Source: Myxococcota bacterium (GTDB lineage Bacteria > Myxococcota_C > UBA6777). Taken from it: a stretch of DNA of 39,840 nucleotides. Below the pieces are notes generated by a model, which worked only from the letters and a program-made list of their open reading frames with translations, ran no database searches and was not told the origin of the DNA. The first letter of the stretch is position 1. Each line of letters begins with the position of its first letter. This document shows positions 4-33,586 of the stretch, in pieces. The stretch is taken from assembly GCA_963169055.1 (NCBI GenBank), contig CAUJFU010000489.1, positions 1-39,840 on the forward strand, given 5' to 3'. The position numbers and the translations under genes are program-made.

Positions 4-2640
4 TTGTGGTGTGATCGAGAAACAGGAGAGAAACCGTGTACGCAGTCCTTTACAGCGGGCTTGGCGGGGCCGCCTTTTTGCGTGGGGGATTGGATGGTGG
101 TAGGGACGATCGATGGGACGGTTGCGCGGCTGGATCTGCGCAAGAACGGGAGCGTTGCGTGGAAGCAGAAGCATGACCGTGGTTTGCGTTTGGCTCCGAT
201 GGGAGAGACTTCGTTGGCGCAAGTATCCGAACACGGCGAGGGGCTTTTGTTGGCGGGGATCTCGGGGTCGGGTCAATTGTTGCTGTGGGATGCCAAAGAG
301 GGCAATGTGCTCTTGTCGCGTGACATCGGAGCGACCGAGGCGATCGGCGTAGAGGTGTTTGAGAACACAGAGATCTTTGTGATGGATCAGGCGGGAGATG
401 GGGAGAAGTGGTCGAATGAAGGAGACAGCGAGACGTGGAAAGTGAAGCGGCGACAAGGCATCCTTCGCTCGTCTGCGTTGTGTGGTGTGACGCACCATGC
501 GCCCGTGTGGAAGGCGTTTCAGGAGTATGTCTTTGGGACGGCTTATGGGGAGGTGATGCGCCGAAGCGTGTTGGAGGGGGTGGAACGTTGGCGGGTACAG
601 ATGCCCGATCCATTGTTGCGGTTGGAACGGCGAGAAGGGAACCTCGTGGTGTGCGGGCGAGCGGGTTCGGTGGTGTGGCTGGATATCTGGAAAGGCCGCC
701 CCTTGTGTACCTTTCGCTTGTCAAGAACGCCTCAATGGGTGCGTGTCCTTGGAGACGGTGGACTCTTGGTGTCGGATACATCGGGGGGATTGTCATGGTA
801 TCGCGGCGGCTGGTGGAAACGAACGCCACCCGCCACAGCTTCGAATCGGCGCAAAGCGTCCAAACTAGCGCAGCCCAAGTTTCATGACGCACAACCAAGC
901 CTCACCTCGCCCTCTCCAAAAGCACAAACGACCGAACCACCGCATCGCACCGAAGCCAAGACAGGATCACAATGGAAAGGCGCAGAACGCATCTTTTCAA
1001 CCACAGCCACCGCGACAGCGCGTGCGTCCGAAAGCCCCGATTCTTCGACCGTTTCGGAACTCTCGGTCGGGATCGAAGTATTATGCGAGCGGTTGAGCGA
1101 CAGAAAACAGAGCGACGAAGCATCCAGAAGGTTAGTGGAGCTTGGTCCAGCGGTGCTTTCGTCGCTGTGGCCGGAGTTATCGAGTGCAGGGATGTTTGGC
1201 CGTATGGCGATCCAAGACACGATGCACAAGATCGCACAAAAACATCGGTTGGATCTGCTGTTTGCGTGGACAGAGCGTTGCATGGCCGTGTTGTTCCATC
1301 CACCCGCGCTGGTGCCGATGCTGGAGATGCTGTTGTTTTGGCCTGATCCAGACGCACGAGAGATCAAGGATGCGTTGCTGCCCCTGCAAGGGCTTTGTGA
1401 AGCACCAACGGACGAATTGAAAGACACATGGACGCGGGTGCAGCAGCGTTATCCATCTTTGGATTTCGATTTCTTTTCTCCGCCGACTTCCGAACAAGCG
1501 CAAAGAGTCGCTCTGCGCCAAGAGCGTGCCGCCAAAGCATCGAAGGCATCGCCTGCATGGGAAACCGTACACGGCCAAGCCGACGCCCAAGACACAGGAT
1601 TTTTTGCAAAGCGTCTCGGCCCGACAAGCCACGATACACGGGTGGCTTGGTCTGGTATGTGGCGCAAAAAAGTCAAAGCAAAAGAACAAGTCCAATCGCC
1701 CAAAGCCTTGTGTCTAGGGGGCGCGGTGGTGGTATTGAATCCTGATGGAACGGAGATGAAAGCGTGGAACTTTCCAAAGCAAGCCAATCAAGGGATGTTT
1801 CTGCGTTGGGAATGGCCGAGCCGTCGGGCGATCAGCAACTTTGCGCTGTGGGAAGATGCGGTCTTGGTGCGTTATCAAGACGGTACGTTGGAGATCGTTC
1901 GGGGTGAAACAGGAGAGGTGCTTTGGGGAAGCGATATACCGAGAGATATCAACTTGTTGTTGCCTGAGCGGGACAGCCTTTACACGCTGCGGCAGGATCG
2001 CGACCGTTGGCTGTTGCGGGCCGAACGGATGAAGGCGTTGTGGTCGATTGAGAAAGTGTGGGAAGTGACGTTGGGGAAAGAACGCCCAAGTACGTTGATC
2101 TTGTCGAGGTCTGGGGATCTTGTGGTGAATGGAACAGAAGGGATGTTTCGGGTGCATCGTACGGAGGATGGGGCATTTGTGTACGAGAAGAAACACCCTT
2201 CGTTGGGCCGATGCTGGTTGATTGGGGCTGAAGAAGGCGTGTTGTTTGCGAACAAAGCAGGGGATTATGGATGTTTGGACGATCAAGGCGAGGTGCGTTG
2301 GCAAGACCGCTCCGAGTATCGCTTGGGAGGAGCGCCCGTGTACGCAGAGGGCCAGATGTATCTGACCAACGAAGATGGTGACGTGTGTGGCGTGGATGCC
2401 GAGACAGGAAAGACGCGCATCATGACCCACACAAGCTCCCCGTTTGGCGGTGCGGTGATTGCGGGAAATGTGCTGTTTGTATGCGACGAAAGCTCGGCCT
2501 ACGGGATAGATCGACGCAACAACGATCAGCTCTGGCGCAAGCCGATCTCAGGGCCGCTAAGTTGGCGCCCGCCAGTGGTGTGGGATCGCAAGTTGTTGGT
2601 CTTTGATCTCAAGGGAAAGATGCACTTGTTGGGGGCGTGA
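4..2640 (+). CDS. PQQ/WD40-like beta-propeller repeat protein, 5' end probably outside the window
   Basis: Long ORF open at the window edge (first codon is an internal TTG). Repeated W/D/G-rich blades such as VVNGTEGMFRVHRTEDG, VYAEGQMYLTNEDGDVCGVDAETG and LFVCDESSAYGIDRRNNDQLWRKPI resemble BamB/PQQ repeats. Central helical segment. Confidence 0.7.
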   Translation: MWCDRETGEKPCTQSFTAGLAGPPFCVGDWMVVGTIDGTVARLDLRKNGSVAWKQKHDRGLRLAPMGETSLAQVSEHGEGLLLAGISGSGQLLLWDAKEGNVLLSRDIGATEAIGVEVFENTEIFVMDQAGDGEKWSNEGDSETWKVKRRQGILRSSALCGVTHHAPVWKAFQEYVFGTAYGEVMRRSVLEGVERWRVQMPDPLLRLERREGNLVVCGRAGSVVWLDIWKGRPLCTFRLSRTPQWVRVLGDGGLLVSDTSGGLSWYRGGWWKRTPPATASNRRKASKLAQPKFHDAQPSLTSPSPKAQTTEPPHRTEAKTGSQWKGAERIFSTTATATARASESPDSSTVSELSVGIEVLCERLSDRKQSDEASRRLVELGPAVLSSLWPELSSAGMFGRMAIQDTMHKIAQKHRLDLLFAWTERCMAVLFHPPALVPMLEMLLFWPDPDAREIKDALLPLQGLCEAPTDELKDTWTRVQQRYPSLDFDFFSPPTSEQAQRVALRQERAAKASKASPAWETVHGQADAQDTGFFAKRLGPTSHDTRVAWSGMWRKKVKAKEQVQSPKALCLGGAVVVLNPDGTEMKAWNFPKQANQGMFLRWEWPSRRAISNFALWEDAVLVRYQDGTLEIVRGETGEVLWGSDIPRDINLLLPERDSLYTLRQDRDRWLLRAERMKALWSIEKVWEVTLGKERPSTLILSRSGDLVVNGTEGMFRVHRTEDGAFVYEKKHPSLGRCWLIGAEEGVLFANKAGDYGCLDDQGEVRWQDRSEYRLGGAPVYAEGQMYLTNEDGDVCGVDAETGKTRIMTHTSSPFGGAVIAGNVLFVCDESSAYGIDRRNNDQLWRKPISGPLSWRPPVVWDRKLLVFDLKGKMHLLGA

Positions 2641-2659: not shown

Positions 2660-4471
2660 TTAGGGTGCGGGGGTGTTCGAAAGCTGTTGAAAAAAGGCGT
2701 GGTATCGGTACTTTTTGGCGAAGGCAAGCAAGGCTTGTCGGAGGGCGTCTCGTTGTGCGGGGGGAGTGGAGTCAAGGATCTGTTTGGAAAGCGCGATAGC
2801 TTGGTCTGTTTGGTCGTTTTGAAGAGAGCGATAGAGTTGGACCATCTGCTGTTTTTTGGAGGGGGACCATTCGTTTGAGACGACCGATAGATCGGAAGGA
2901 AGCTCATTCTTTTTAGGAGAGGATGGTGCGGGTTCCTGAACGACTCGTGGAGCGGGATCTTGCGAGGATTGCGGAGCGGGGAGCGGGGGCTGGCTCACGG
3001 GTTGGGTGGGCTGGTTTGTTTTGGCTTGTTTGTCAAAGGCGACAGAGCGGGGCGAAGTGATCGGTTTTTTGGGGGCAGGAAAGCCCGTGTTAAGGGGAGC
3101 GGGAGGCGAAGGGGGTGCGGGTGGGCTCGCCCGCCCACCGCCAAGATAGAGGCCTTCAGGTTGTGAGCGTGGGGCGCGTTTCTTCGTGGCGTATCGAGCG
3201 GGTCGAGCGAGCCGAGGGCGGCGTTTGCGTGTGTTGCGCACCGTGGCGGTGACTTCGGGCTTGCGTGTATCGGTAAGCGAAGAAGGTTCTTGTTTGGTTG
3301 CTTCGACGTCATCGCGTTGTGAAGGGCTTTTGCGTTCGTTGTCTTTGTGCGCGGATGCGCGGTAGTGTTTGGATTCGTTATTTTTGTGCGCGGATGCGCG
3401 GTAGCGTTTGGGTTGGTTGTTTTTGTGTGTGGGTGCGCGATAGCGTTTGGGCGATCTCTTGTAACGCCCAGCCGATCGGCCTCTGCGCGATCGAGTATTC
3501 GAGCGATCTGCGGGTGGGGGTTCGGGATCAGCCATGCGTGCAGGAGGCGGAGAGCCGGGCGTCGGAGAGGTCCATTCGGGATCTGATTTTTTTTCGAGAT
3601 CCGCGTCTTCTTTTTTTGTTGCTCCATCCGCGTTTGCTCGTGCGATCGGAGCTTGGCTTGGGAGAGCTTTGGCAGGAGAGGCCGCAGGAGGGAGGACGGG
3701 TTGCGGCGTTTGGGTTGAGCCTTTTCGCCCTTCGCGTAGGGAAGAGGATTCCGTATCACCGCTTTTTTCTGCTCGTTTTGGAGAAAACAGATCACGAAAG
3801 AATTGGCCGAAGCTGCGGCGTTTTGCTTTTCGGGGCGGCGTGGGAGGAGAGGCGACGGAGGTTTTTTTTTGCTCTTCGACTGGGGGAGGAGGGGCATAAC
3901 TTGGAACAGTTGAAGTCTCGGAGGATTGAGAGCGCGTAGGTTCAGCAGTATGGGGGGTTTTGGCGGGAAGGGTGTTAAGCGATCCTGAGGGGCTTTGTTT
4001 TTGTTTGGCGGTAGTGTTGGGGGCCTCAGCAGCGGAAGAGGGCGAGGGCATGGGAGAATGGGCCGCACGTTGGCCTGTTTGTGGAGCGGCAGGAGCGATG
4101 TCACGCGCAGACAACGACGGCGCGGAGGTTTCTTGTTGGAGGGTTTTTTGCGAGAGCAAAAAAGTCATGCCGACGACAAGGGTGAGTGTGGCGAAAGTGG
4201 CGAGCGGCTGCCAGTTTTGGAGAAACCCGTGCAACCAAGAGCGTGCGGGAGGGGTGGCGTATTGGGCGGCCTGTTGGCGTGCAGCGCGCAAGATCTGCTG
4301 ATCCAACGAAGCGGGAGGTTCGTGCTGTTGGAGATGGTGTCGGATCTGATCCGAGGTGTGACGCCACGCCCGAAGGGCATGTCGCTCTTCGGGATTCGAC
4401 GTCAGATCTTCGGGTGCTTCGGGGCGATCCAACCATTCGATTAGTTTGTTTTCAAAATCTTGACGATCCAT
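2660..4471 (-). CDS. Putative membrane anti-sigma-factor-like protein with long Pro/Arg-rich C-terminal region
   Basis: Start ATG at 4471 with AAGGATGG upstream. Short N-terminal cytosolic-type domain, single TM segment (LATFATLTLVVGMTFLLS), directly downstream of an ECF sigma gene on the same strand. Confidence 0.65.
   Translation of the reverse strand: MDRQDFENKLIEWLDRPEAPEDLTSNPEERHALRAWRHTSDQIRHHLQQHEPPASLDQQILRAARQQAAQYATPPARSWLHGFLQNWQPLATFATLTLVVGMTFLLSQKTLQQETSAPSLSARDIAPAAPQTGQRAAHSPMPSPSSAAEAPNTTAKQKQSPSGSLNTLPAKTPHTAEPTRSQSSETSTVPSYAPPPPVEEQKKTSVASPPTPPRKAKRRSFGQFFRDLFSPKRAEKSGDTESSSLREGRKGSTQTPQPVLPPAASPAKALPSQAPIARANADGATKKEDADLEKKSDPEWTSPTPGSPPPARMADPEPPPADRSNTRSRRGRSAGRYKRSPKRYRAPTHKNNQPKRYRASAHKNNESKHYRASAHKDNERKSPSQRDDVEATKQEPSSLTDTRKPEVTATVRNTRKRRPRLARPARYATKKRAPRSQPEGLYLGGGRASPPAPPSPPAPLNTGFPAPKKPITSPRSVAFDKQAKTNQPTQPVSQPPLPAPQSSQDPAPRVVQEPAPSSPKKNELPSDLSVVSNEWSPSKKQQMVQLYRSLQNDQTDQAIALSKQILDSTPPAQRDALRQALLAFAKKYRYHAFFQQLSNTPAP
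3327..3443 (-). repeat. 39-bp in-frame tandem repeat (x3) in the anti-sigma-like gene
   Basis: Protein repeat YRAPTHKNNQPKR / YRASAHKNNESKH / YRASAHKDNERKS. DNA anchors at 3361, 3400 and 3439 give an exact 39-bp period. Confidence 0.8.
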
Positions 4472-4593: not shown

Positions 4594-5241
4594 TCAGCGT
4601 TGAAGATCTTCGAGGGTGACTCCTTTGGATTCGAGGTGGCGTCGCAAGTATTCGAGCGCGTAGCGCATACGGCTTTTGACCGTATTTTCGAGTGTACCGA
4701 CGACGTCAGCGATCTCTTTGTAAGAGAGGTGAGAGACCTCGCGCAACAAAAAGACCTCGCGTTGTTCGGGGGGAAGTCCTTCCAATCCGATCTCAAGGCT
4801 GTGATGTATCTCCCGAAAAAATGTGTTGTCCTCGCTGCGTTCTCTTGCTTCGGCGTCTTCGATGCTTTGTTCGAGGGTCGGTCCTTCGTCTTGTGTGCGG
4901 CTTGGTGCGCTTTGATGGAGCGAGAGCATCACACGATGGCGTTGGCGACGATAGGCATCAATGCAGATGTTGCGTGCGATGGTGTACAACCAAGTCGTAA
5001 ACTTGGCCTGTTTGGTGTAGCTTTGCGCATTTTGGATCACCCGCATAAACACTTCTTGCATCAACTCTTCGGCTAGTTCGACGGAATGAACGGATCGCAA
5101 GATAAAATTGAAGACTGGCTTGCGATGGCGCGCATACAGCCGCTCAAAAGCCTGCGCGTTGCCTTTGGCATAATCGAGCATCAAGTCCTCATCCGTTGCT
5201 TCGGTGGTTTGAAGCGCGAGGGTGAGGGTTCCGACGCTCAT
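4594..5241 (-). CDS. RNA polymerase sigma factor, ECF (sigma-70) family
   Basis: Region 2 (FERLYARHRKPVFNFILR, ELAEELMQEVFMRVIQ, FTTWLYTIARNICIDAYRR) and region 4 (LPPEQREVFLLREVSHLSYKEIADVVGTLENTVKSRMRYALEYLR). Likely start at MSVGTL (5241). Confidence 0.93.
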   Translation of the reverse strand: MSVGTLTLALQTTEATDEDLMLDYAKGNAQAFERLYARHRKPVFNFILRSVHSVELAEELMQEVFMRVIQNAQSYTKQAKFTTWLYTIARNICIDAYRRQRHRVMLSLHQSAPSRTQDEGPTLEQSIEDAEARERSEDNTFFREIHHSLEIGLEGLPPEQREVFLLREVSHLSYKEIADVVGTLENTVKSRMRYALEYLRRHLESKGVTLEDLQR

Positions 5242-5600
5242 GCTGATGAATACGAGAGAGAGCCACAAACGATCTTCTCCTTTCCAAAAAAGGATCGCAC
5301 CACACGGGCGGAGAGGGGGGGAAGCCGGCCTGTGCGGACGAAAGAAGCCTCTGTGCGAGAGGAGATTTTGACTTTACCGCATCGGCAAGCAGAATCAAGG
5401 GGAAAGCGCTGACCTATGGATCGTGCAGATGTGCAGATCCGCCGGAAGGTCGCGCTTGTTGAGGACTCCATTTGCGATCTCTTTGAGAACAGATCGCGCT
5501 ATCCGAGACAGAACCCACAACCCAAGCGGTTGGTTGGTAGGCGATCCCACCGCAAAGTTCCCTCAAGACCGTCTTCTCCGCAGAAAGGATCCCTGAGTCA

Positions 5601-6465: not shown

Positions 6466-8427
6466 TTAATCGTTGTTTTGGGGCTCGTTGTTGTCTTGGG
6501 GTTCGCTATTGTTGTCGTCGTCTTGGGGTTCGTCATCGCCCGTTGTGGTGGGGTTTGCAGGAGCCGGAGCATCTTCTTGGGGCGCTGCAGTCGGTTCTTG
6601 CGAAGCAGCGGGTTCGTCTTGAGCAGCGTCGTTGTTTTGTGCGCCGTCATTGTCCGCGAGTTGCGTACCATCGGCAGGAAGCATCTCACCGCCAAGCCAT
6701 TTACCAGCTTTCATAAAGGCCGCAAAGTGGGCTGCTTTGATCTCGACGGTGGTCCAGAAGATCTTGAACATCTTTTTGCCGCGCTTGGCGACCATCTTCT
6801 TGATCTTCTTTTTCTTGAGTTTCATCAAGTTGTATTTGACGCGCTGTTCGGCGGTAAAGATCTTTTGCTTCTTGAGGAAGTACTCGATCTTCGCGGCAAG
6901 CAAAGCGTCTTTCGCTGCGATCACTTTGTCGATTTGTTGTGTCAGTGCGGGGAGTGTGATGTGGATGTCCATCATCAACGCAGCGAGGATCATTTTTTCG
7001 GCTTTGTAGCGTGCTTTCAACGGAAGCAGCGCACGTTTCATGTCGTACTTGAGGACATGAAGTTGTTGTTTTTGTTCTTGCGTTAGCGACTTACGGAACT
7101 TCATTTGCTTTTGGATGCCCGCAAGCATGAAGGCTTTCATGTAAAGCTTGCGCTTGTTGCGCTTGCCATGCTTGCCACGACGGCCCCACTTGCCACGACG
7201 GCCCCATGCTCGGCCTTTGTCGCCACCTTTCCAACCTCGGTCTTTGCCTGCGCCTGCTTGGTCTTTGCCACAGGTACACTTGCCGGGTTCACACTGGCAC
7301 TTACCGGGTTCGCATTTGCAGCCGGGTGTTCCGCAGGTTGCAGCACTACAAGCAGCTTCTTTGGCATGGTCTTTTGCTTTTCCACACTTGCATTCACCGG
7401 GTTTGCACTTGCACTTGCTAGGTTCGCATTTGCAATCAGGCGTTCCACAAGCCGCACAAGCGGTTTTTGCATCGCTGGCTGCCCCGTGGTGATGGTGGCC
7501 TTTTCCGTGGTGATGATGGCCTTTGTCCGCGTGTTTGTGACCTTTGTCGCCCCATGCGCCTTTTTTGTCTTTGCAAGCTTTTTTACCAAAGGCTTTTTTA
7601 CCGAAGGCTTTTTTGCCAGAATGGCCATGACGCTTGTGTTTTTTCAGTTTTTTGAAGGGACAACCGCCGTCTTGAAGGCGAAGTTTACGAGCTTTTTTGT
7701 GCAAACCAAACGCGATCAATTTCGCCATTTTGTTTGCGCGTTTTTGGGCTTTTTTCATCGCCATTTTGCGAGCAAAATACATTTTGGTGAAAGCGCGTTT
7801 GTCTTTTTCAGAGCCGAAGAAAGCGCGTTTTTCGAGGAAGAAGGCAGCCTTGGTCACCATCTTTTCGCGTTTGGCGGCCATCAAGGCTTTGCGTTTTTCA
7901 GCGATCACCTTGGTATCGGGGCTGTCGCTCATCTTGGCTTCGGCGAGTTCTGCTTTGCGCAACTTGACGTAAAGCTTGATGCTTTTCATCTTGAGCTGCT
8001 TGCGAAGCTTAAAGCTCTTGGCTTTGGCCTTCACTTCGGGCGTCAGGCTGGCCATCAGTTTGGCTTTTTTGATGGCAAGGCGTTTGACATGGGCTTTTCG
8101 CGCCGCACGCATCAGCTTGCGCATCTTGCGTTGCTTGTTCCAACCGCGTTTTTTGGCGCGCTTGCCCCAACGACGGCCTTGGTTGCCCCAACGACGGCCT
8201 TGACGGCCCCAGCGCTGGCCTCGATGACCCCAACGATGACCTTGGCGGCCCCAACGGCCTTGGCCCCAACGATCGCGGCCCCAATGACCGGGGTGGTTGG
8301 GCTTGAGGTAGGGACATGCCACAACAGCAGGGCAAAGTCCTTGTTGTGCGTGATGATCCGCTTTTGCACTCTGGGGCAGCAGTGCGAAAGAAAGACCGGC
8401 AACGAGCGTGAGAAGCAGTTTTCTCAT
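6466..8427 (-). CDS. Secreted Arg/Lys-rich protein with two Spy/CpxP-like segments, His-rich stretch and duplicated Cys-rich metallothionein-like module
   Basis: Start ATG at 8427 preceded by AAGGAG. Signal peptide MRKLLLTLVAGLSFALLPQSAKA. Contains GHKHADKGHHHHGKGHHHHG, two CGTPxCKCEPxKCxCxPGxCxCGK modules, and LTQEQKQQLHVLK...FTAEQRVKYNLMK resembling LTxxQ motifs. Confidence 0.8.
   Translation of the reverse strand: MRKLLLTLVAGLSFALLPQSAKADHHAQQGLCPAVVACPYLKPNHPGHWGRDRWGQGRWGRQGHRWGHRGQRWGRQGRRWGNQGRRWGKRAKKRGWNKQRKMRKLMRAARKAHVKRLAIKKAKLMASLTPEVKAKAKSFKLRKQLKMKSIKLYVKLRKAELAEAKMSDSPDTKVIAEKRKALMAAKREKMVTKAAFFLEKRAFFGSEKDKRAFTKMYFARKMAMKKAQKRANKMAKLIAFGLHKKARKLRLQDGGCPFKKLKKHKRHGHSGKKAFGKKAFGKKACKDKKGAWGDKGHKHADKGHHHHGKGHHHHGAASDAKTACAACGTPDCKCEPSKCKCKPGECKCGKAKDHAKEAACSAATCGTPGCKCEPGKCQCEPGKCTCGKDQAGAGKDRGWKGGDKGRAWGRRGKWGRRGKHGKRNKRKLYMKAFMLAGIQKQMKFRKSLTQEQKQQLHVLKYDMKRALLPLKARYKAEKMILAALMMDIHITLPALTQQIDKVIAAKDALLAAKIEYFLKKQKIFTAEQRVKYNLMKLKKKKIKKMVAKRGKKMFKIFWTTVEIKAAHFAAFMKAGKWLGGEMLPADGTQLADNDGAQNNDAAQDEPAASQEPTAAPQEDAPAPANPTTTGDDEPQDDDNNSEPQDNNEPQNND
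7270..7458 (-). repeat. Two tandem copies of an 8-Cys metallothionein-like module
   Basis: ACAACGTPDCKCEPSKCKCKPGECKCGK and ACSAATCGTPGCKCEPGKCQCEPGKCTCGK, separated by about 8 aa. Confidence 0.8.
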
Positions 8428-8811
8428 GGAGACTCCTTGGGTTTCGATGACTATGGGAAACGATGCAACCACGTGCATCAAGGGAAACGAGTTGGAAAAG
8501 AACATCACAACAAAGCTGATTTTTGTTTCGTAGTATCCTCAGTTGAAATCACAAGGCAAGGGGCGAAACAATCCGTCGTCGTTTTTTGTTCCCAGAAGGA
8601 GGGAAGCGAAGAAAGTATTGAAATAAAGCAGCGAGCGCGCTTCAGGCATATCTGGGCGGCATGGACAAGCAGATTCAAAGATCGGTTTACGAACCACAAA
8701 GAAGTTTTTGCGATCCAAGCCCAGATCGGCGAGGATAAGACAACGGTTGCCAAACCAAACAACCGCAAAATGCGGCTTTAGCGAGCAACAAAGAACGAGA
8801 GAGGGAGTGTG

Positions 8812-9573
8812 ATGGCGTTTGAGATCTTGGTCGTTGGTGTGGGGGATGCGTTTAGTGTTCGCCACTTTGGAACTTCTTTTTTGTTGCGGCGTGGAGATTT
8901 TGTGTGCGGCGTGGATTGCCCCGATCTCTATCGTCGGGCGTTGCACACACATCGCTTTCAGCACCAAGGGGATCTTTTGGATGCCCAACACCTCGATGCT
9001 TTGATCTTGACCCACCTACACGGAGATCATGTCAACGGCTTAGAGATGGTGGCTGCTTACTTGCGTTTCGGTTTTCGCAAAAAACTCAAGCTGTACACCT
9101 CCAAAGAAGTGATCCAAGATCTCTGGAATCGCCGATTATCGGTCTCTTTAGGACAGATGTGGGACGGCCAAGGCTATCAAACCCTGTCTGTCGAGGATTA
9201 CTTTGATCTCGAAGAGATCTCTTGGCAGGTTCCCGCACAAATCGGACCCTTTACCGTGACGACACGGCGCACCATCCACCACCTGCCGACGATGGCCCTT
9301 CAAATCAGCGATGGCGAACACACCTTCGGCCATTCGTGCGATACAGCCTATGATCCCGATCTGATCGATTGGTTACAACGCTGCGATCTGTTTTTTCACG
9401 AAGCGAATTTCGGACCCGCCCATACCCCCCTCGAACGCCTTCAAGCCCTCCCGCTCGATGTACGAAAAAAAATGCGCCTCGTCCATTATTCCGATCTGCT
9501 CGACCTCTCGACGCTTCAAGGCATCCAACCCGCATCTGAAGGACAACGCATCGTTGTGGGTTCGGATGAATAA
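8812..9573 (+). CDS. MBL-fold metallo-hydrolase
   Basis: HLHGDH motif (LILTHLHGDHVNGLE), downstream His (TIHHLP) and SCDTAYDP. ATG at 8812. Confidence 0.9.
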   Translation: MAFEILVVGVGDAFSVRHFGTSFLLRRGDFVCGVDCPDLYRRALHTHRFQHQGDLLDAQHLDALILTHLHGDHVNGLEMVAAYLRFGFRKKLKLYTSKEVIQDLWNRRLSVSLGQMWDGQGYQTLSVEDYFDLEEISWQVPAQIGPFTVTTRRTIHHLPTMALQISDGEHTFGHSCDTAYDPDLIDWLQRCDLFFHEANFGPAHTPLERLQALPLDVRKKMRLVHYSDLLDLSTLQGIQPASEGQRIVVGSDE

Positions 9574-13347: not shown

Positions 13348-13429
13348 GCTATAAACCGTGCCGTTCCCTTTTGGTGTAATAGCTCGGAAAGCAAGCGTAC
13401 ACGGGCAAGATGGAATCGGGAGGAAGGCG

Positions 13430-15145
13430 TTGGTAGGAGAACAGATCCCGCAAGAGCGTTGGCGAGCGCGGTTGTTGTTGGCTGCGGTGTTTGTGTTGGT
13501 GGGTTGCGGCATCGTGATGGAGTTGATGATCGCGGGGTACGCATCCCATCTACAAGGCGATAGCATCTATCAATTTTCGCTGACGATCGGCTTGTTTATG
13601 AGTGCGATGGGGGTGGGCAGTTTTTTGACCCAGCGCTTTGAGGATCGTTTGGTCGAGCGGATGGCGTGGGTGCAATGGAGTTTTGCAGCGAGCAGCGCGG
13701 CGACGATCTTGTTTTTGGGGTTATCGGATCAATTCACGACCAGCTTTTCGTTGATGTCGCATGGATGGACGGTATGGATGGGGGGGCATATCGGCTTTAT
13801 GCTGCCGTTGGCGGTGCGGATCGTGGAGAGCGATCTACCGCTGCCGCGCTTGTTGGCGAGCGTGTTGTTTATGGACTACCTTGGGGCGTTGGCGGGTTCG
13901 TTGTGGTTTCCGTGGTGGCTGTTGCCGACCTTGGGATTTGCAAATGGCGCGCTGGCGGTGGCTTTGGTGGCCTTGATTGGGCTATCGTTGCTTGGGATCG
14001 CTTTTTGGCGGATTCTGCGATGGGAACGGGGCCTTTGGTGGGCGACGTTGCTTTTGTTGGGTGGTATCGCTCTCTCGTGGGATCGCACAGAACGGATCCT
14101 TGAGCATTTGTCGATGCGTGGGATGAAAGGTGTCGAGAAGATCCATATCGAACGCTCACGCTACCAAGAGATCCGCTTTTTTCGTTATGGAAAAGAACAT
14201 TTTTTGAGCCTGAATCGGTTTGCGCAATTCAGCAGCCAAGACGAACACCGCTATCACGAGTCGTTGGTGCATCTTGCGATGCACCGGGCCAAACAGCACA
14301 AGCGGATCTTGATCTTGGGAGGCGGGGATGGCCTCGTGTTGCGCGAGTTGTGGCGTTATGCGGATGTTGCGCATGTTGTGATGGTCGATCTCGATCCCGC
14401 GATGACTCGTTTTGGTGCAACGCATCCTGTGATGCGCCGCCTCAACGAAGACTCAATGATCCCGCCCAAGCCGCGAACCTACTGCCTCTACGAAGCCATC
14501 TGCGGTACAGCCCGCCCCAAGCGGCTCTATCAACAACGCATCGAACGCCCCGAAGCTTCTTGCCCACCAATCCCCGCCCACAAAAAGCCCGAATCTGCGA
14601 CCTGTTCGCTGCACATCCGCAAACAACAAAGCCATCCGACGCTGGAGATCCGCAACGAAGACGCTTGGAAATACGTTGAACAAGCCAACACGCCGTTTGA
14701 TATCATCCTCTCGGATCTACCCGACGCCACCAATATCTCGCTGTCCAAGTTGTACAGCATCGAATTTTATCGGATGCTTCGGCGTTTACTGGTTCGGGGT
14801 GGAGCGATGGCGGTGCAATCCACGACGGTGGCTCCGGGCTATCGTCGTGCCTTTTGGTGCATCTACAACACCATCCATGCAGCGGGCTTTCACACGCAAG
14901 CCTATCATGCTTGGATCCCAAGCTTTGGCCTGCATACGAGTTTTGTGTTGGCCGCCGATGAACCTGTCGGCTTGCAAACGCTCCAATTCACGGTGCCGAC
15001 GCGCTTTTTGCACGATCATTTTCTGCCTGCGATGTTGTGGTTTCCCAAAGATATCGAACACGTCGAGACGCGGATCAATCGGATCGACACGCACATCTTG
15101 TTGCGCTATCTGCTGAAAAACTCGCTGCTTGGGTCTGTAGAATGA
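13430..15145 (+). CDS. Membrane-anchored spermidine synthase-like protein (paralog 1)
   Basis: N-terminal TM segments, then RILILGGGDGLVLRELWRY, VVMVDLDPAMTRF, FDIILSDLPDATN. Start ambiguous: TTG at 13430 after GGAGGAAGG, or GTG at 13358. Confidence 0.88.
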   Translation: MVGEQIPQERWRARLLLAAVFVLVGCGIVMELMIAGYASHLQGDSIYQFSLTIGLFMSAMGVGSFLTQRFEDRLVERMAWVQWSFAASSAATILFLGLSDQFTTSFSLMSHGWTVWMGGHIGFMLPLAVRIVESDLPLPRLLASVLFMDYLGALAGSLWFPWWLLPTLGFANGALAVALVALIGLSLLGIAFWRILRWERGLWWATLLLLGGIALSWDRTERILEHLSMRGMKGVEKIHIERSRYQEIRFFRYGKEHFLSLNRFAQFSSQDEHRYHESLVHLAMHRAKQHKRILILGGGDGLVLRELWRYADVAHVVMVDLDPAMTRFGATHPVMRRLNEDSMIPPKPRTYCLYEAICGTARPKRLYQQRIERPEASCPPIPAHKKPESATCSLHIRKQQSHPTLEIRNEDAWKYVEQANTPFDIILSDLPDATNISLSKLYSIEFYRMLRRLLVRGGAMAVQSTTVAPGYRRAFWCIYNTIHAAGFHTQAYHAWIPSFGLHTSFVLAADEPVGLQTLQFTVPTRFLHDHFLPAMLWFPKDIEHVETRINRIDTHILLRYLLKNSLLGSVE

Positions 15146-16755: not shown

Positions 16756-18471
16756 ATGTCTTCCAACCGCCCCGATACTCCAGCCACAACGCAAAAAGCC
16801 CACGGCACCAAGGCCTCTCCCGAAGTGTCCGCGCCTTTGGCGTCGCCACCCTCTCAAACACCCGATGTATCGCCCCCCTCTCAAACACCCGATGTCTCGC
16901 CATCACCTCAAACATCTGATGTCTCGCCATCACCTCAACCATCCGATGTCTCGCCACAGTACCTCGCAGGGCGACAGAAAAGCCGCGTCTTGCTGTTTTC
17001 CATTATGTTGATTGCCACCAATGGCGTAATCTACGAGCTTTTGATCGGCGGCTATTCTTCGTATCTGCTTGGCGACAGCATCACACAATTCTCGCTCACC
17101 ATCGGTTTGTTTATGAGTTCGATGGGTGTGGGTTCTTGGTTGACGCAGCGCTTTGAGCGCGATCTCGAAGCGCGTTTTGTGGAAGTCGAGATCTTGTTGG
17201 CCTTGGTGGGCGGTCCCACGGTGCTTTTGTTGGCGATGGCCCACATCTACACGCGGCTGTATTCGTGGGTGATGTTTGCCCTGATCATCTTGATTGGATG
17301 CTTGATTGGTTTCGAGATCCCTTTGGTGACGCGGATCGTCGAGCGTTATGGCGGTCTCAAAAAAGCCCTTGCGAACGTGCTTTCCTTTGATTACATCGGC
17401 GCGTTGTTTGGCTCGCTGTTGTTTCCGTTGGTGTTGTTGCCCGAGCTTGGTTTTGCGCGAACTTCGTTCTTTATCGGCTTGGTGAATCTCGGCGTGGCGA
17501 GCGTCAATCTCTGGAGTTTTCGCAGCGATCTAGGAAAAAACCTAGGGCGACTGTGGTTTGGAACGATCTTTACAGCGCTGCTATTGGGGATCGGCTTCTT
17601 TTACTCGGCAGGCTGGATCGAACGTGCCCGTGAATCGGCCACCCAACAAAAGCTCGTTCATCTCGAACATACCCCTTACCAACATCTTCGCTTTGTCAAA
17701 GAACAAGGCAAAAGAGGCCCTATCTACCGACTTTATCTGAATGGAGAGCATCAGTTTAGCAGCGACAGCGAACGGCGTTATCACGAGGCTCTGGTGCATC
17801 CAGCGATGGCAGCGGCTCCCAAGCGCCAACGCATCCTGATCTTGGGCGGTGGCGATGCGCTCGCCCTGCGCGAGATCTGCCGCTACAAAGAAGTCCGTGA
17901 GATCGTGATGGTCGATCTCGATCCAGCGATGACTCGCTTTGCACGAAACCACCCGCTCATGCGCCAACTCAACGAAGACGCCCTACGCGATCCGCGCTTG
18001 ACGCTCTACAATATGGACGCTTCGCTTTACATCCAACGCCCGAACATCCGCCCTTTTGATGTCGTGATTATCGATCTACCCGTTCCCACAAATATCGGTC
18101 TATCCAAGCTCTACACCGTCCATTTTTATCGGATGCTTCGGCGTGTGACACACCATCAAAGTGTTCTTGTCACCGAAGCGGCTGTCCTCAACCCCATCGA
18201 ATACAAACCCTTTTGGTCAATCCATCGCACACAAACCCGCGCAGGTTGGCGAGTTTACCCCTTTGTTCTCGAAACGATGGCCTTCTTTCTCTTTCGCCAA
18301 ACGCCGCTTGATACGGACTCTCTGCGCCCGCTTGTTCCCACACAATCACTTTCCGATGGCGCCCTTGCTGCGGCCTTTTCACTCCCTCCCGATGCAACAC
18401 CCTCCCGCCTTCTTCCCGCCAATACGCTCGACACTCACGCTCTTTTGCACCTGATCTTGCAACTGCGCTAA
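16756..18471 (+). CDS. Membrane-anchored spermidine synthase-like protein (paralog 3)
   Basis: RILILGGGDALALREI, EIVMVDLDPAMTRFARNHP, FDVVIIDLPVPTNIGLSKLYTVHFYRMLRR. TM N-terminus closely related to paralog 1. Confidence 0.88.
   Translation: MSSNRPDTPATTQKAHGTKASPEVSAPLASPPSQTPDVSPPSQTPDVSPSPQTSDVSPSPQPSDVSPQYLAGRQKSRVLLFSIMLIATNGVIYELLIGGYSSYLLGDSITQFSLTIGLFMSSMGVGSWLTQRFERDLEARFVEVEILLALVGGPTVLLLAMAHIYTRLYSWVMFALIILIGCLIGFEIPLVTRIVERYGGLKKALANVLSFDYIGALFGSLLFPLVLLPELGFARTSFFIGLVNLGVASVNLWSFRSDLGKNLGRLWFGTIFTALLLGIGFFYSAGWIERARESATQQKLVHLEHTPYQHLRFVKEQGKRGPIYRLYLNGEHQFSSDSERRYHEALVHPAMAAAPKRQRILILGGGDALALREICRYKEVREIVMVDLDPAMTRFARNHPLMRQLNEDALRDPRLTLYNMDASLYIQRPNIRPFDVVIIDLPVPTNIGLSKLYTVHFYRMLRRVTHHQSVLVTEAAVLNPIEYKPFWSIHRTQTRAGWRVYPFVLETMAFFLFRQTPLDTDSLRPLVPTQSLSDGALAAAFSLPPDATPSRLLPANTLDTHALLHLILQLR
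16846..16956 (+). repeat. 27-bp in-frame tandem repeat (x4) in N-terminus of paralog 3
   Basis: PPSQTPDVS / PPSQTPDVS / PSPQTSDVS / PSPQPSDVS. 'gatgt' anchors at 16864, 16891, 16918 and 16945. Confidence 0.85.
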
Positions 18472-31404: not shown

Positions 31405-33330
31405 TTAGGAGCGACCGATGCCTTCGTAAGTAAAGCCGAGGGCTTTGAGTTTTTCGGGAGGGTAGATATTGCGGCCATCGATTAGGATGGGTTGGCGCAT
31501 CAATCGGCGAACTTGTTCAAAGTCAGGATCGCGGAAAGCGAGCCATTCGGTGACCAGCACGAGAGCGTCGGCTTGATCGAGAGCTTGGTATTCGTCATCA
31601 CAAAGCCGCAAGGCTCCAGAACGCAGCGCATCGCAGAATGCCGCGCCTGCGGTTTCTTCGGCGACTGGGTCGTATGCAGAAACGCGAGCACCTGCTTCGA
31701 TCAGATGTTGGATCAAGACGATCGAAGGGGCTTCGCGCATATCATCCGTCTCAGGCTTAAAAGCGAGTCCCCACAGAGCGATCTTTTTGTTGCGCAGATC
31801 CCCAAGCAGCCGCTTGAGTTTCAAGAAGGGGACGGACTTTTGGTGCGCATTGACGTCCTCAACCGCCTGTACGATCCGCAGATCGTAATCATGTTGCCGC
31901 GCCACATGCAGCAAAGCCTGCGTATCTTTTGGAAAACAGTTATGAGCCACAAGCCCTCCCGTTGTGACGACGGTTTGGTACGCAGTTTCCAGCGAGTACA
32001 CCAGCCCTTTATAAGGTTCCATTGTCACCTCTTTCACACGAACACGGGCCGTCGGATTTCCCTTATTTAAGCGTAAATCCGACGCGGTGGGCTGGCTGCT
32101 TGGCGTGGAGCAAAAAAGAGAATTGATCTCGTCGTTTTGTAGCGTTTCGGCTGTCGGTAAATGAAAAGGCAACCAATCACGAGCGTCCAACTCATTCGCT
32201 AATTTGATCCCCTGCACATCACCGACTTCGTCGAGCACATAGAACGGATGATCGCCTGTACACGCGATATGCGTCCCCATGCTCGCACGCAAGTGAGCGA
32301 TCTCCCCCTCGTAGCCGCGTCGGGTGAGTGCCATCACAGGAGAAAAAGAAAAGTTTTGCCTTTCAGGATCCCAAGACAGGGCCTCCAAGCCGTTCGGAGC
32401 AAGAGAACACAAACTGAAAGCATCCTCTTGCGTTTCGTCTGGTTCGTCTTGCGTTTCTGTTGTTTGAAAGCGCTCGAAAAGCTCCTCGAAGGTCAGCACC
32501 TCAACGCGCCCTTGATAACGGATCTGAAGCGTTTCTTGCCCAACAAAACACGAGCCGCCGTAGCCAACACCCGCGTAAAGGAAGTGATGGCCGATACGGT
32601 GATCTGTCCCCATGCCTCGACGGATCTGCTCGATATTGGCTCCAACGCGTTCGCAAAGGTTGGCGAGATCGTTCATAAAAGAGATGCGTGTCGCAAGCAT
32701 CGCATTACAGGCGTATTTGCAAAGCTCTGCATCGCGAGGAGCCATCGTCAGGATCTGCGAGGCATCCTCCACAAAGGGCCGATAGAGATCGCGCATCATC
32801 TCGGAACCACGGTCTGTATTGCAACCGATCACGACGCGATCAGGTTCCAAGAAATCTTTGAGCGCAAGTCCCTCACGCAAAAACTCTGGGTTGCTGACCC
32901 AATCGACGGGAAAACGCGCATGATGCTCACAGTGCGCACGCAATTGATCTTGTGTGCCTACAGGTACGGTGCTTTTGACCACCAAAACCAACCGACCCGT
33001 CGCGGCCTTGAGTACGGCCTCGGCAACCGCAAAGACTTGCGAGAGATCCGCCGAGCCATCCTGCGCAGGTGGCGTTCCAACCGCAATAAAGCACACATCA
33101 ACGCCTTGAACAGAAGTCACCAGATCGGTTGAAAAAACAAGGTTTCCTTTTTGATGGTTACGGATCACAACCTCGTCGAGACCGGGTTCATAGATCGGCA
33201 TGATCCCTTTGCGAAGGTTTTCGATCTTTTGCGTGTTGATATCGACGCAGATCACATGCCGACCGCTCTCCGAAAAACAGGCCCCTGCCACAAGGCCCAC
33301 ATACCCTGTCCCGATAACGCATAACTTCAT
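31405..33330 (-). CDS. ugd: UDP-glucose 6-dehydrogenase precursor interrupted by a mini-intein
   Basis: MKLCVIGTGYVGLVAGACFSESGRHVICVDIN, GVGYGGS..CFPKDTQALLHVA, ALWGLAFKPETDDMREAPS. ATG at 33330 with AGAGGAG SD. Confidence 0.96.
   Translation of the reverse strand: MKLCVIGTGYVGLVAGACFSESGRHVICVDINTQKIENLRKGIMPIYEPGLDEVVIRNHQKGNLVFSTDLVTSVQGVDVCFIAVGTPPAQDGSADLSQVFAVAEAVLKAATGRLVLVVKSTVPVGTQDQLRAHCEHHARFPVDWVSNPEFLREGLALKDFLEPDRVVIGCNTDRGSEMMRDLYRPFVEDASQILTMAPRDAELCKYACNAMLATRISFMNDLANLCERVGANIEQIRRGMGTDHRIGHHFLYAGVGYGGSCFVGQETLQIRYQGRVEVLTFEELFERFQTTETQDEPDETQEDAFSLCSLAPNGLEALSWDPERQNFSFSPVMALTRRGYEGEIAHLRASMGTHIACTGDHPFYVLDEVGDVQGIKLANELDARDWLPFHLPTAETLQNDEINSLFCSTPSSQPTASDLRLNKGNPTARVRVKEVTMEPYKGLVYSLETAYQTVVTTGGLVAHNCFPKDTQALLHVARQHDYDLRIVQAVEDVNAHQKSVPFLKLKRLLGDLRNKKIALWGLAFKPETDDMREAPSIVLIQHLIEAGARVSAYDPVAEETAGAAFCDALRSGALRLCDDEYQALDQADALVLVTEWLAFRDPDFEQVRRLMRQPILIDGRNIYPPEKLKALGFTYEGIGRS
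31939..32550 (-). mobile_element. Mini-intein (204 aa) within UDP-glucose 6-dehydrogenase, no homing endonuclease domain
   Basis: In-frame insertion between GYGGS and CFPKD. Starts CFVGQETLQIRYQG (block A), has GTHIACTGDHPFYV (block B TxxH), VKEVTMEPYKGLVYSLET (block F-like), and ends VTTGGLVAHN followed by Cys+1. Confidence 0.93.
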
Positions 33331-33391
33331 AATTGCTCCTCTATTCAGCACGCCAAATGGCGGATCTTGATCTGGGTGGACTTGCGCGTTT

Positions 33392-33470
33392 GGATTTGTT
33401 TTCGTGGGGCTTGTTTTCGTGAGGCTTGTTTTCGTGAGGCTTGTTTTTGTGAGGCTTGTTTTCGTGGGGC
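33392..33470. repeat. 15-bp tandem repeat (~5 copies) upstream of ugd
   Basis: GGCTTGTTTTCGTGA-type units. The unit 'c' recurs at 33410, 33425, 33440, 33455 and 33470. Confidence 0.85.
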
Positions 33471-33586
33471 GTTGCCCCAAACCCCACAAGGGACCGATGG
33501 CCCCTTGACCCCGTGTTGGCGGAACGAACAGACCTTTTTCACAAAGACAACACCGCCGCTTGGGGGCCTACGAACACGTCTTCTTT
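33466..33586. repeat. Dispersed intergenic repeat, copy B
   Basis: ggggcgttgccccaaaccccacaaggg...ccccttgaccccgtgttggcgg...tttttcacaaagacaac...ccgcttgg...cgaacacg. Confidence 0.75.

Follow-up and report, generated by a model that had tools for sequence, protein, structure and literature searches.

A single intact open reading frame (ORF) on the minus strand of the window, the 39,840-nucleotide stretch of DNA analyzed here, encodes a polybasic protein of 653 amino acids that is predicted to be exported and that carries two helical domains whose membership in the Spy/CpxP/ZraP/CnrX (LTXXQ / Metal_resist) superfamily is well supported. The superfamily is already known; the tandem arrangement of its domains amid moving Cys/His arms matches nothing in Pfam, NCBIfam or PDB, and we found no description of such an architecture in open-access papers. 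The frame (6466..8427) starts with ATG and is preceded by AAGGAGTCTCC, a purine-rich ribosome site resembling AGGAG/GGAGG; the matching start codons of all four orthologues follow a similar site. Despite long ORFs that overlap it on the opposite strand, the gene is real, because an orthologue from the same genus, found in a genome deposited as Myxococcota bacterium MAG, is 95% identical to the window protein and the pair has an overall dN/dS of 0.11. Judged by this conservation, 6466..8427 codes for a genuine, conserved protein, present in one copy in the source assembly (G000; 6.6 Mb, 523 contigs). We place about even confidence in the proposal that this exported double Spy-type protein would buffer metals with its disordered Cys/His arms and hold envelope proteins in its basic helical cradles.

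The initial annotation of this DNA had described a signal peptide, RWG repeats, helical segments, a His stretch and an acidic tail, and each of these could be located in the 653-residue frame (all coordinates are on the minus strand). Residues 1-23 (MRKLLLTLVAGLSFALLPQSAKA; 8359..8427) read by eye as a Sec type I signal peptide with cleavage after AKA and no lipobox. A hydrophobic, signal-peptide-like leader, likewise read by eye, opens all five orthologues, suggesting that these proteins cross the inner membrane to a periplasmic or secreted destination. The leader is followed in the sequence by a basic, Trp-rich stretch of RWGxxG repeats (residues 48-89; 8161..8286), with six RWG-type units at residues 53-90, and then by helical domain A (residues 107-251; 7675..8109), with an LTxxQ-type core at about residues 126-222. 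Next come a His cluster (GHHHHGKGHHHHG / GHHHHGKGHHHHGA; residues 303-316; 7480..7521), two Cys modules discussed below and a second basic segment, of WGRRG type (residues 408-421; 7165..7206). Helical domain B occupies residues 419-573 (6709..7173; core at about residues 446-541), and an Asp/Asn/Gln/Pro tail with a net charge of about -18 closes the protein (residues 590-653; 6469..6660). The protein as a whole is strongly basic, with a pI of 10.3 and a net charge of about +103 (114 Lys and 44 Arg).

Kinship of both helical segments with Spy/CpxP had first been guessed from motifs, on the understanding that segments lacking such similarity would speak against it. We found the similarity in A and B alike, with profile-profile comparison, AlphaFold2 and Foldseek in agreement. 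Taken alone, the window domains fall below Pfam cut-offs: A has no match, B reaches 12.0 bits for PF13801 (Metal_resist), and the PF07813 cut-off is also missed. Among the orthologues, domain A from G004 clears the PF13801 threshold (39.4 bits; cut-off 29.2) and that from G003 reaches 28.9 bits; the remaining orthologue domains have lower scores, for the most part in the same register. Compared by hhalign with a set of single-domain Spy/CpxP proteins, A scored 98.0%, B 98.1% and both 98.7%, and the two domains matched each other at 97.3%, while 40 column shuffles of each gave at most 1.0%. A profile built from eight of the domains alone was searched in 386 genomes, 381 of them outside the phylum, and matched single-domain, apparently exported proteins in 54 of these 381, nearly always over model positions of about 21-107. 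All seven outside proteins tested, taken from among the first ones and including L069, exceed both the PF13801 and the PF07813 cut-offs.

The full-length AlphaFold2 model, built from only four sequences, contains two four-helix units (pLDDT 85-97, with 87-97 in the domain B core) and is near-disordered elsewhere; modeled alone, domain A forms four helices with a pLDDT of 94.3. Foldseek placed CnrX and NccX among the top folds for the full-length model, and ZraP, CpxP (3itf) and CnrX among those for domain A; Spy was also among the top folds found. The best matches reach a probability of 0.99 and a target-normalised TM of 0.74, with weak E-values, none below 0.001. Ranked by E-value, a phage small terminase comes first for domain A, at a poor TM of 0.35-0.41. 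We therefore treat the structural comparison as supporting evidence that is not decisive by itself.

Several other matches were set aside. Hits of the full protein to ribosomal proteins and Erlin in Pfam, NCBIfam and PDB are compositional. A PDB sequence search with A2 ranked archaeal S19 first and returned short matches to LTPEQ and basic stretches, with Spy appearing only at an E-value of about 1. Over its full length the protein has no counterpart in Pfam, NCBIfam or PDB, in keeping with the initial view that its architecture is unrecognised, and PADLOC returned nothing for it.

The Spy/CpxP family (LTXXQ, PF07813) shares with the window domains a signal peptide, basic character, four helices and a pair of LTxxQ-type motifs, which lie about 75-80 residues apart. 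The window protein differs in having two domains per chain, five times the size, and disordered arms rich in Cys and His. ZraP (3lay) has the same helical fold (Foldseek probability 0.99, TM 0.65-0.74 on the target), yet it is one small domain that forms a decamer, whereas the putative ligands of the window protein are far more numerous and sit in long arms. CnrX, which with NccX represents the Metal_resist (PF13801) branch matched by the G004 orthologue, is anchored in the membrane and senses metal at a defined His/Glu/Met site; the window protein has neither such a site nor an anchor.

That CnrX shares the fold and acts in an ECF circuit raises the possibility that the window protein is a metal sensor signaling through an anti-sigma factor to a nearby ECF sigma factor. 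An ECF sigma gene does lie about 1.2 kb away (4594-5268, minus strand), followed by a 603-residue ORF (2660-4471, minus strand) with a weak anti-sigma match (E 0.0085). However, an oppositely oriented TPR gene intervenes, the sigma gene is not found beside the orthologues in other genera, neither the sequence nor the AlphaFold2 model has a transmembrane anchor helix, and the domain A core contains no His. We consider such a circuit highly improbable and rejected it because synteny is not kept and a His site is missing.

More generally, neighbors differ between genera: we found no conserved neighbor, operon or upstream motif shared between them and no metal-resistance gene conserved beside the gene, and promoter-like sites are near chance level. 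The adjoining ORF (8809-9573, plus strand) has a metallo-beta-lactamase fold and scores 55.5 bits for Apyc1 (Anti-Pycsar) against a cut-off of 50; it also matches Lactamase_B_2 and, from these family matches, is likely an ordinary member of the family. Elsewhere in the window, a UDP-glucose/GDP-mannose dehydrogenase ORF (31405-33489, minus strand) seems to harbor an intein that separates the central from the C-terminal domain (residues 369-517; PF14890, E 1.7e-6, under the Pfam cut-off), and two plus-strand ORFs (13358-15145 and 16756-18471) match the spermine/spermidine synthase domain.

Homologs with the same domain order, a search for which had been suggested at the outset, are present in all five genomes examined. 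These represent the whole sample of the phylum and span three genera, and searches at the family, order, class and phylum levels all reach the same five. The G003 orthologue is divided over two contig ends with overlapping sequence. Every protein has the leader, then helical domain A, then helical domain B, amid low-complexity basic arms. In a tree with single-domain relatives, the A domains of all five proteins cluster together (97/94), and their B domains make up a second group (95/96). Since each group spans all five genomes, the duplication that gave rise to A and B is, on this tree, older than the separation of the three genera.

Both groups adjoin L050, a single-domain paralogue from this phylum whose tail is basic and rich in Asp. 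Like L050, the Spy-like paralogues L027, L053 and L054 (all four from G002-G004) share with the window protein a signal peptide and a Spy domain, and the set carries unusual RWGRRG, HRGCRG or poly-Asp tails, that of L053 being an RWGRRG tail resembling the window repeats; they differ in having one domain only and a length of 170-306 residues. Such tails suggest a basic-tail habit common to the single-domain and doubled proteins. No frame with two profile matches was found in 426 genomes outside the phylum, where the survey also returned a few further long frames of 435-501 residues. In another phylum, a 513-residue frame (L087; genome G418, 295-1836, plus strand) has two LTxxQ segments, the first of them short; a signal-peptide-like stretch precedes the second and basic Cys/His arms are absent. 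From its sequence, L087 may be a pair of genes that share one open, high-GC reading frame. No plasmid relatives of the window protein were found. Restriction of the doubled architecture to one small Myxococcota-like lineage is thus provisional, resting on a non-exhaustive survey of 426 outside genomes.

Between the window protein and its same-genus orthologue, dN/dS is 0.13 in domain A, 0.02 in domain B, 0.10 in the linker and 0.11 in the Cys modules. The low linker and module values mean that purifying selection extends to the low-complexity arms. Across genera, conservation is highest in the helical cores. This conservation, together with the lowest dN/dS in domain B and the electrostatic mode of capture used by Spy (PMC8144458), would suit a pure Spy-like chaperone, in which a doubled basic cradle and basic arms boost client capture and the Cys/His richness reflects compositional drift of the disordered arms. 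But the five proteins retain 20, 20, 42, 41 and 41 Cys, with none in the helical cores (a lone Cys counted in the G004 domain B segment precedes the B core), and drift would not hold counts so high. The purifying selection on the Cys modules points the same way, and we regard a chaperone with incidental Cys as distinctly unlikely.

The Cys of the window protein are arranged in module 1 (CGTPDCKCEPSKCKCKPGECKCGK; residues 327-350; 7378..7449), where CxC alternates with C-x4-C spacing, and module 2 (CGTPGCKCEPGKCQCEPGKCTCGK; residues 365-388; 7264..7335). The copies are identical at 18 of 24 residues, against 11 for the best pair in 300 linker shuffles, which bears out the earlier reading of a duplicated module. 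That reading had counted two 8-Cys modules, 16 Cys in all. Both modules exist, but the motif as written, CGTPxCKCEPxKCxCxPGxCxCGK, has 7 Cys, and 16 is reached only when one flanking Cys per module is counted. The description of the modules as metallothionein-like holds as a resemblance: they share with metallothioneins dense CxC, Lys adjoining Cys and small tandem Cys modules. It does not extend to family membership, for no metallothionein family in Pfam matched (best Metallothio_6, 7.5 bits, E 7.9, cut-off 23), the protein is predicted to be exported rather than cytoplasmic, and the modules lie inside a large protein. The best PDB match of the Cys block, kalata-B1 (E 0.11), was judged to be chance.

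Among the five genomes, this type of module occurs only in the genus of the window. Arms rich in Cys and His are nonetheless found in every orthologue (26, 28, 43, 58 and 35 His per protein, few of them in the cores), with a location and sequence that vary among genera. The Cys arrays lie in the A-B linker in the window's genus, in an N-terminal array of 220-240 residues in a second genus (g2), whose linker is rich in His (26-32) and Trp, and in the linker plus a C-terminal array in a third (g3). By sequence comparison, then, the arms keep their composition while sequence and position change. With no Cys and few His in the helical cores, any metal binding would be mainly in these low-complexity arms.

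The same arms could be read as a polycationic scaffold of the envelope or matrix, the main rival to metal buffering. Their Lys, Arg, Trp and Gly would bind anionic LPS, polysaccharide, extracellular DNA or mineral, inter-chain disulfides would cross-link a sheath or matrix, and metals would be incidental. The extreme net charge (+99 to +215 across orthologues), the arms that stay basic though they vary in sequence and position, and the absence of metal genes nearby are consistent with a scaffold; so are the Cys of g2 and g3, which lie in Gly/Lys-rich repeats at wide spacings (C-x3-C to C-x6-C) and not in strict CxC clusters. A scaffold leaves unexplained, however, why two Spy/metal-resistance folds are the sole conserved domains, and the dense CxC and His cluster of the window modules are typical of metal ligands. 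Also at odds with it is the acidic tail, which is confined to the window's genus, the g2 and g3 orthologues ending in Lys/Ala/Pro-rich or Cys-rich stretches. We judge the scaffold unlikely.

A chaperone that buffers metals in the envelope, the reading we favor, fits a protein in which two cradles adjoin many soft-metal ligands. Spy binds its clients through a positively charged cradle by electrostatic capture, and deletion of spy makes cells zinc-sensitive (PMC8144458); ZraP is a periplasmic chaperone whose activity is enhanced by zinc (PMC10848872). From composition and from these relatives, we infer that the arms bind metal, that the cradles act as chaperones and that the two activities are coupled. 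On entering the envelope, metals of thiophilic or borderline character (Cu, Zn, Cd, Ag or Hg) would meet the polycationic Cys/His arms and be chelated there. The two cradles, both strongly basic, would catch envelope proteins as these unfold, as Spy does, and metal loading would perhaps tune the chaperone activity, as zinc does for ZraP. Against metal buffering stand the oxidising periplasm, where the Cys could form disulfides instead, and the lack of both a metallothionein family match and a conserved metal-resistance neighbor.

A more far-reaching and rather doubtful extension is that these proteins are lineage-specific "metal sponge chaperones", in which the Cys/His arms have been repeatedly replaced or moved at a roughly constant Cys load, selection acts on metal capacity irrespective of sequence and position, and metal loading switches the chaperone.

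Known Spy/CpxP/ZraP proteins are small, have a single domain and act as chaperones or metal sensors. With 20-42 Cys in disordered arms, a conserved doubled Spy would let one exported protein both store metals and protect other proteins, and the analysis gives a name to a protein left blank by general family libraries. In their shifting Cys arrays, these proteins also provide a natural setting for asking whether selection on disordered metal-binding segments favors capacity over sequence.
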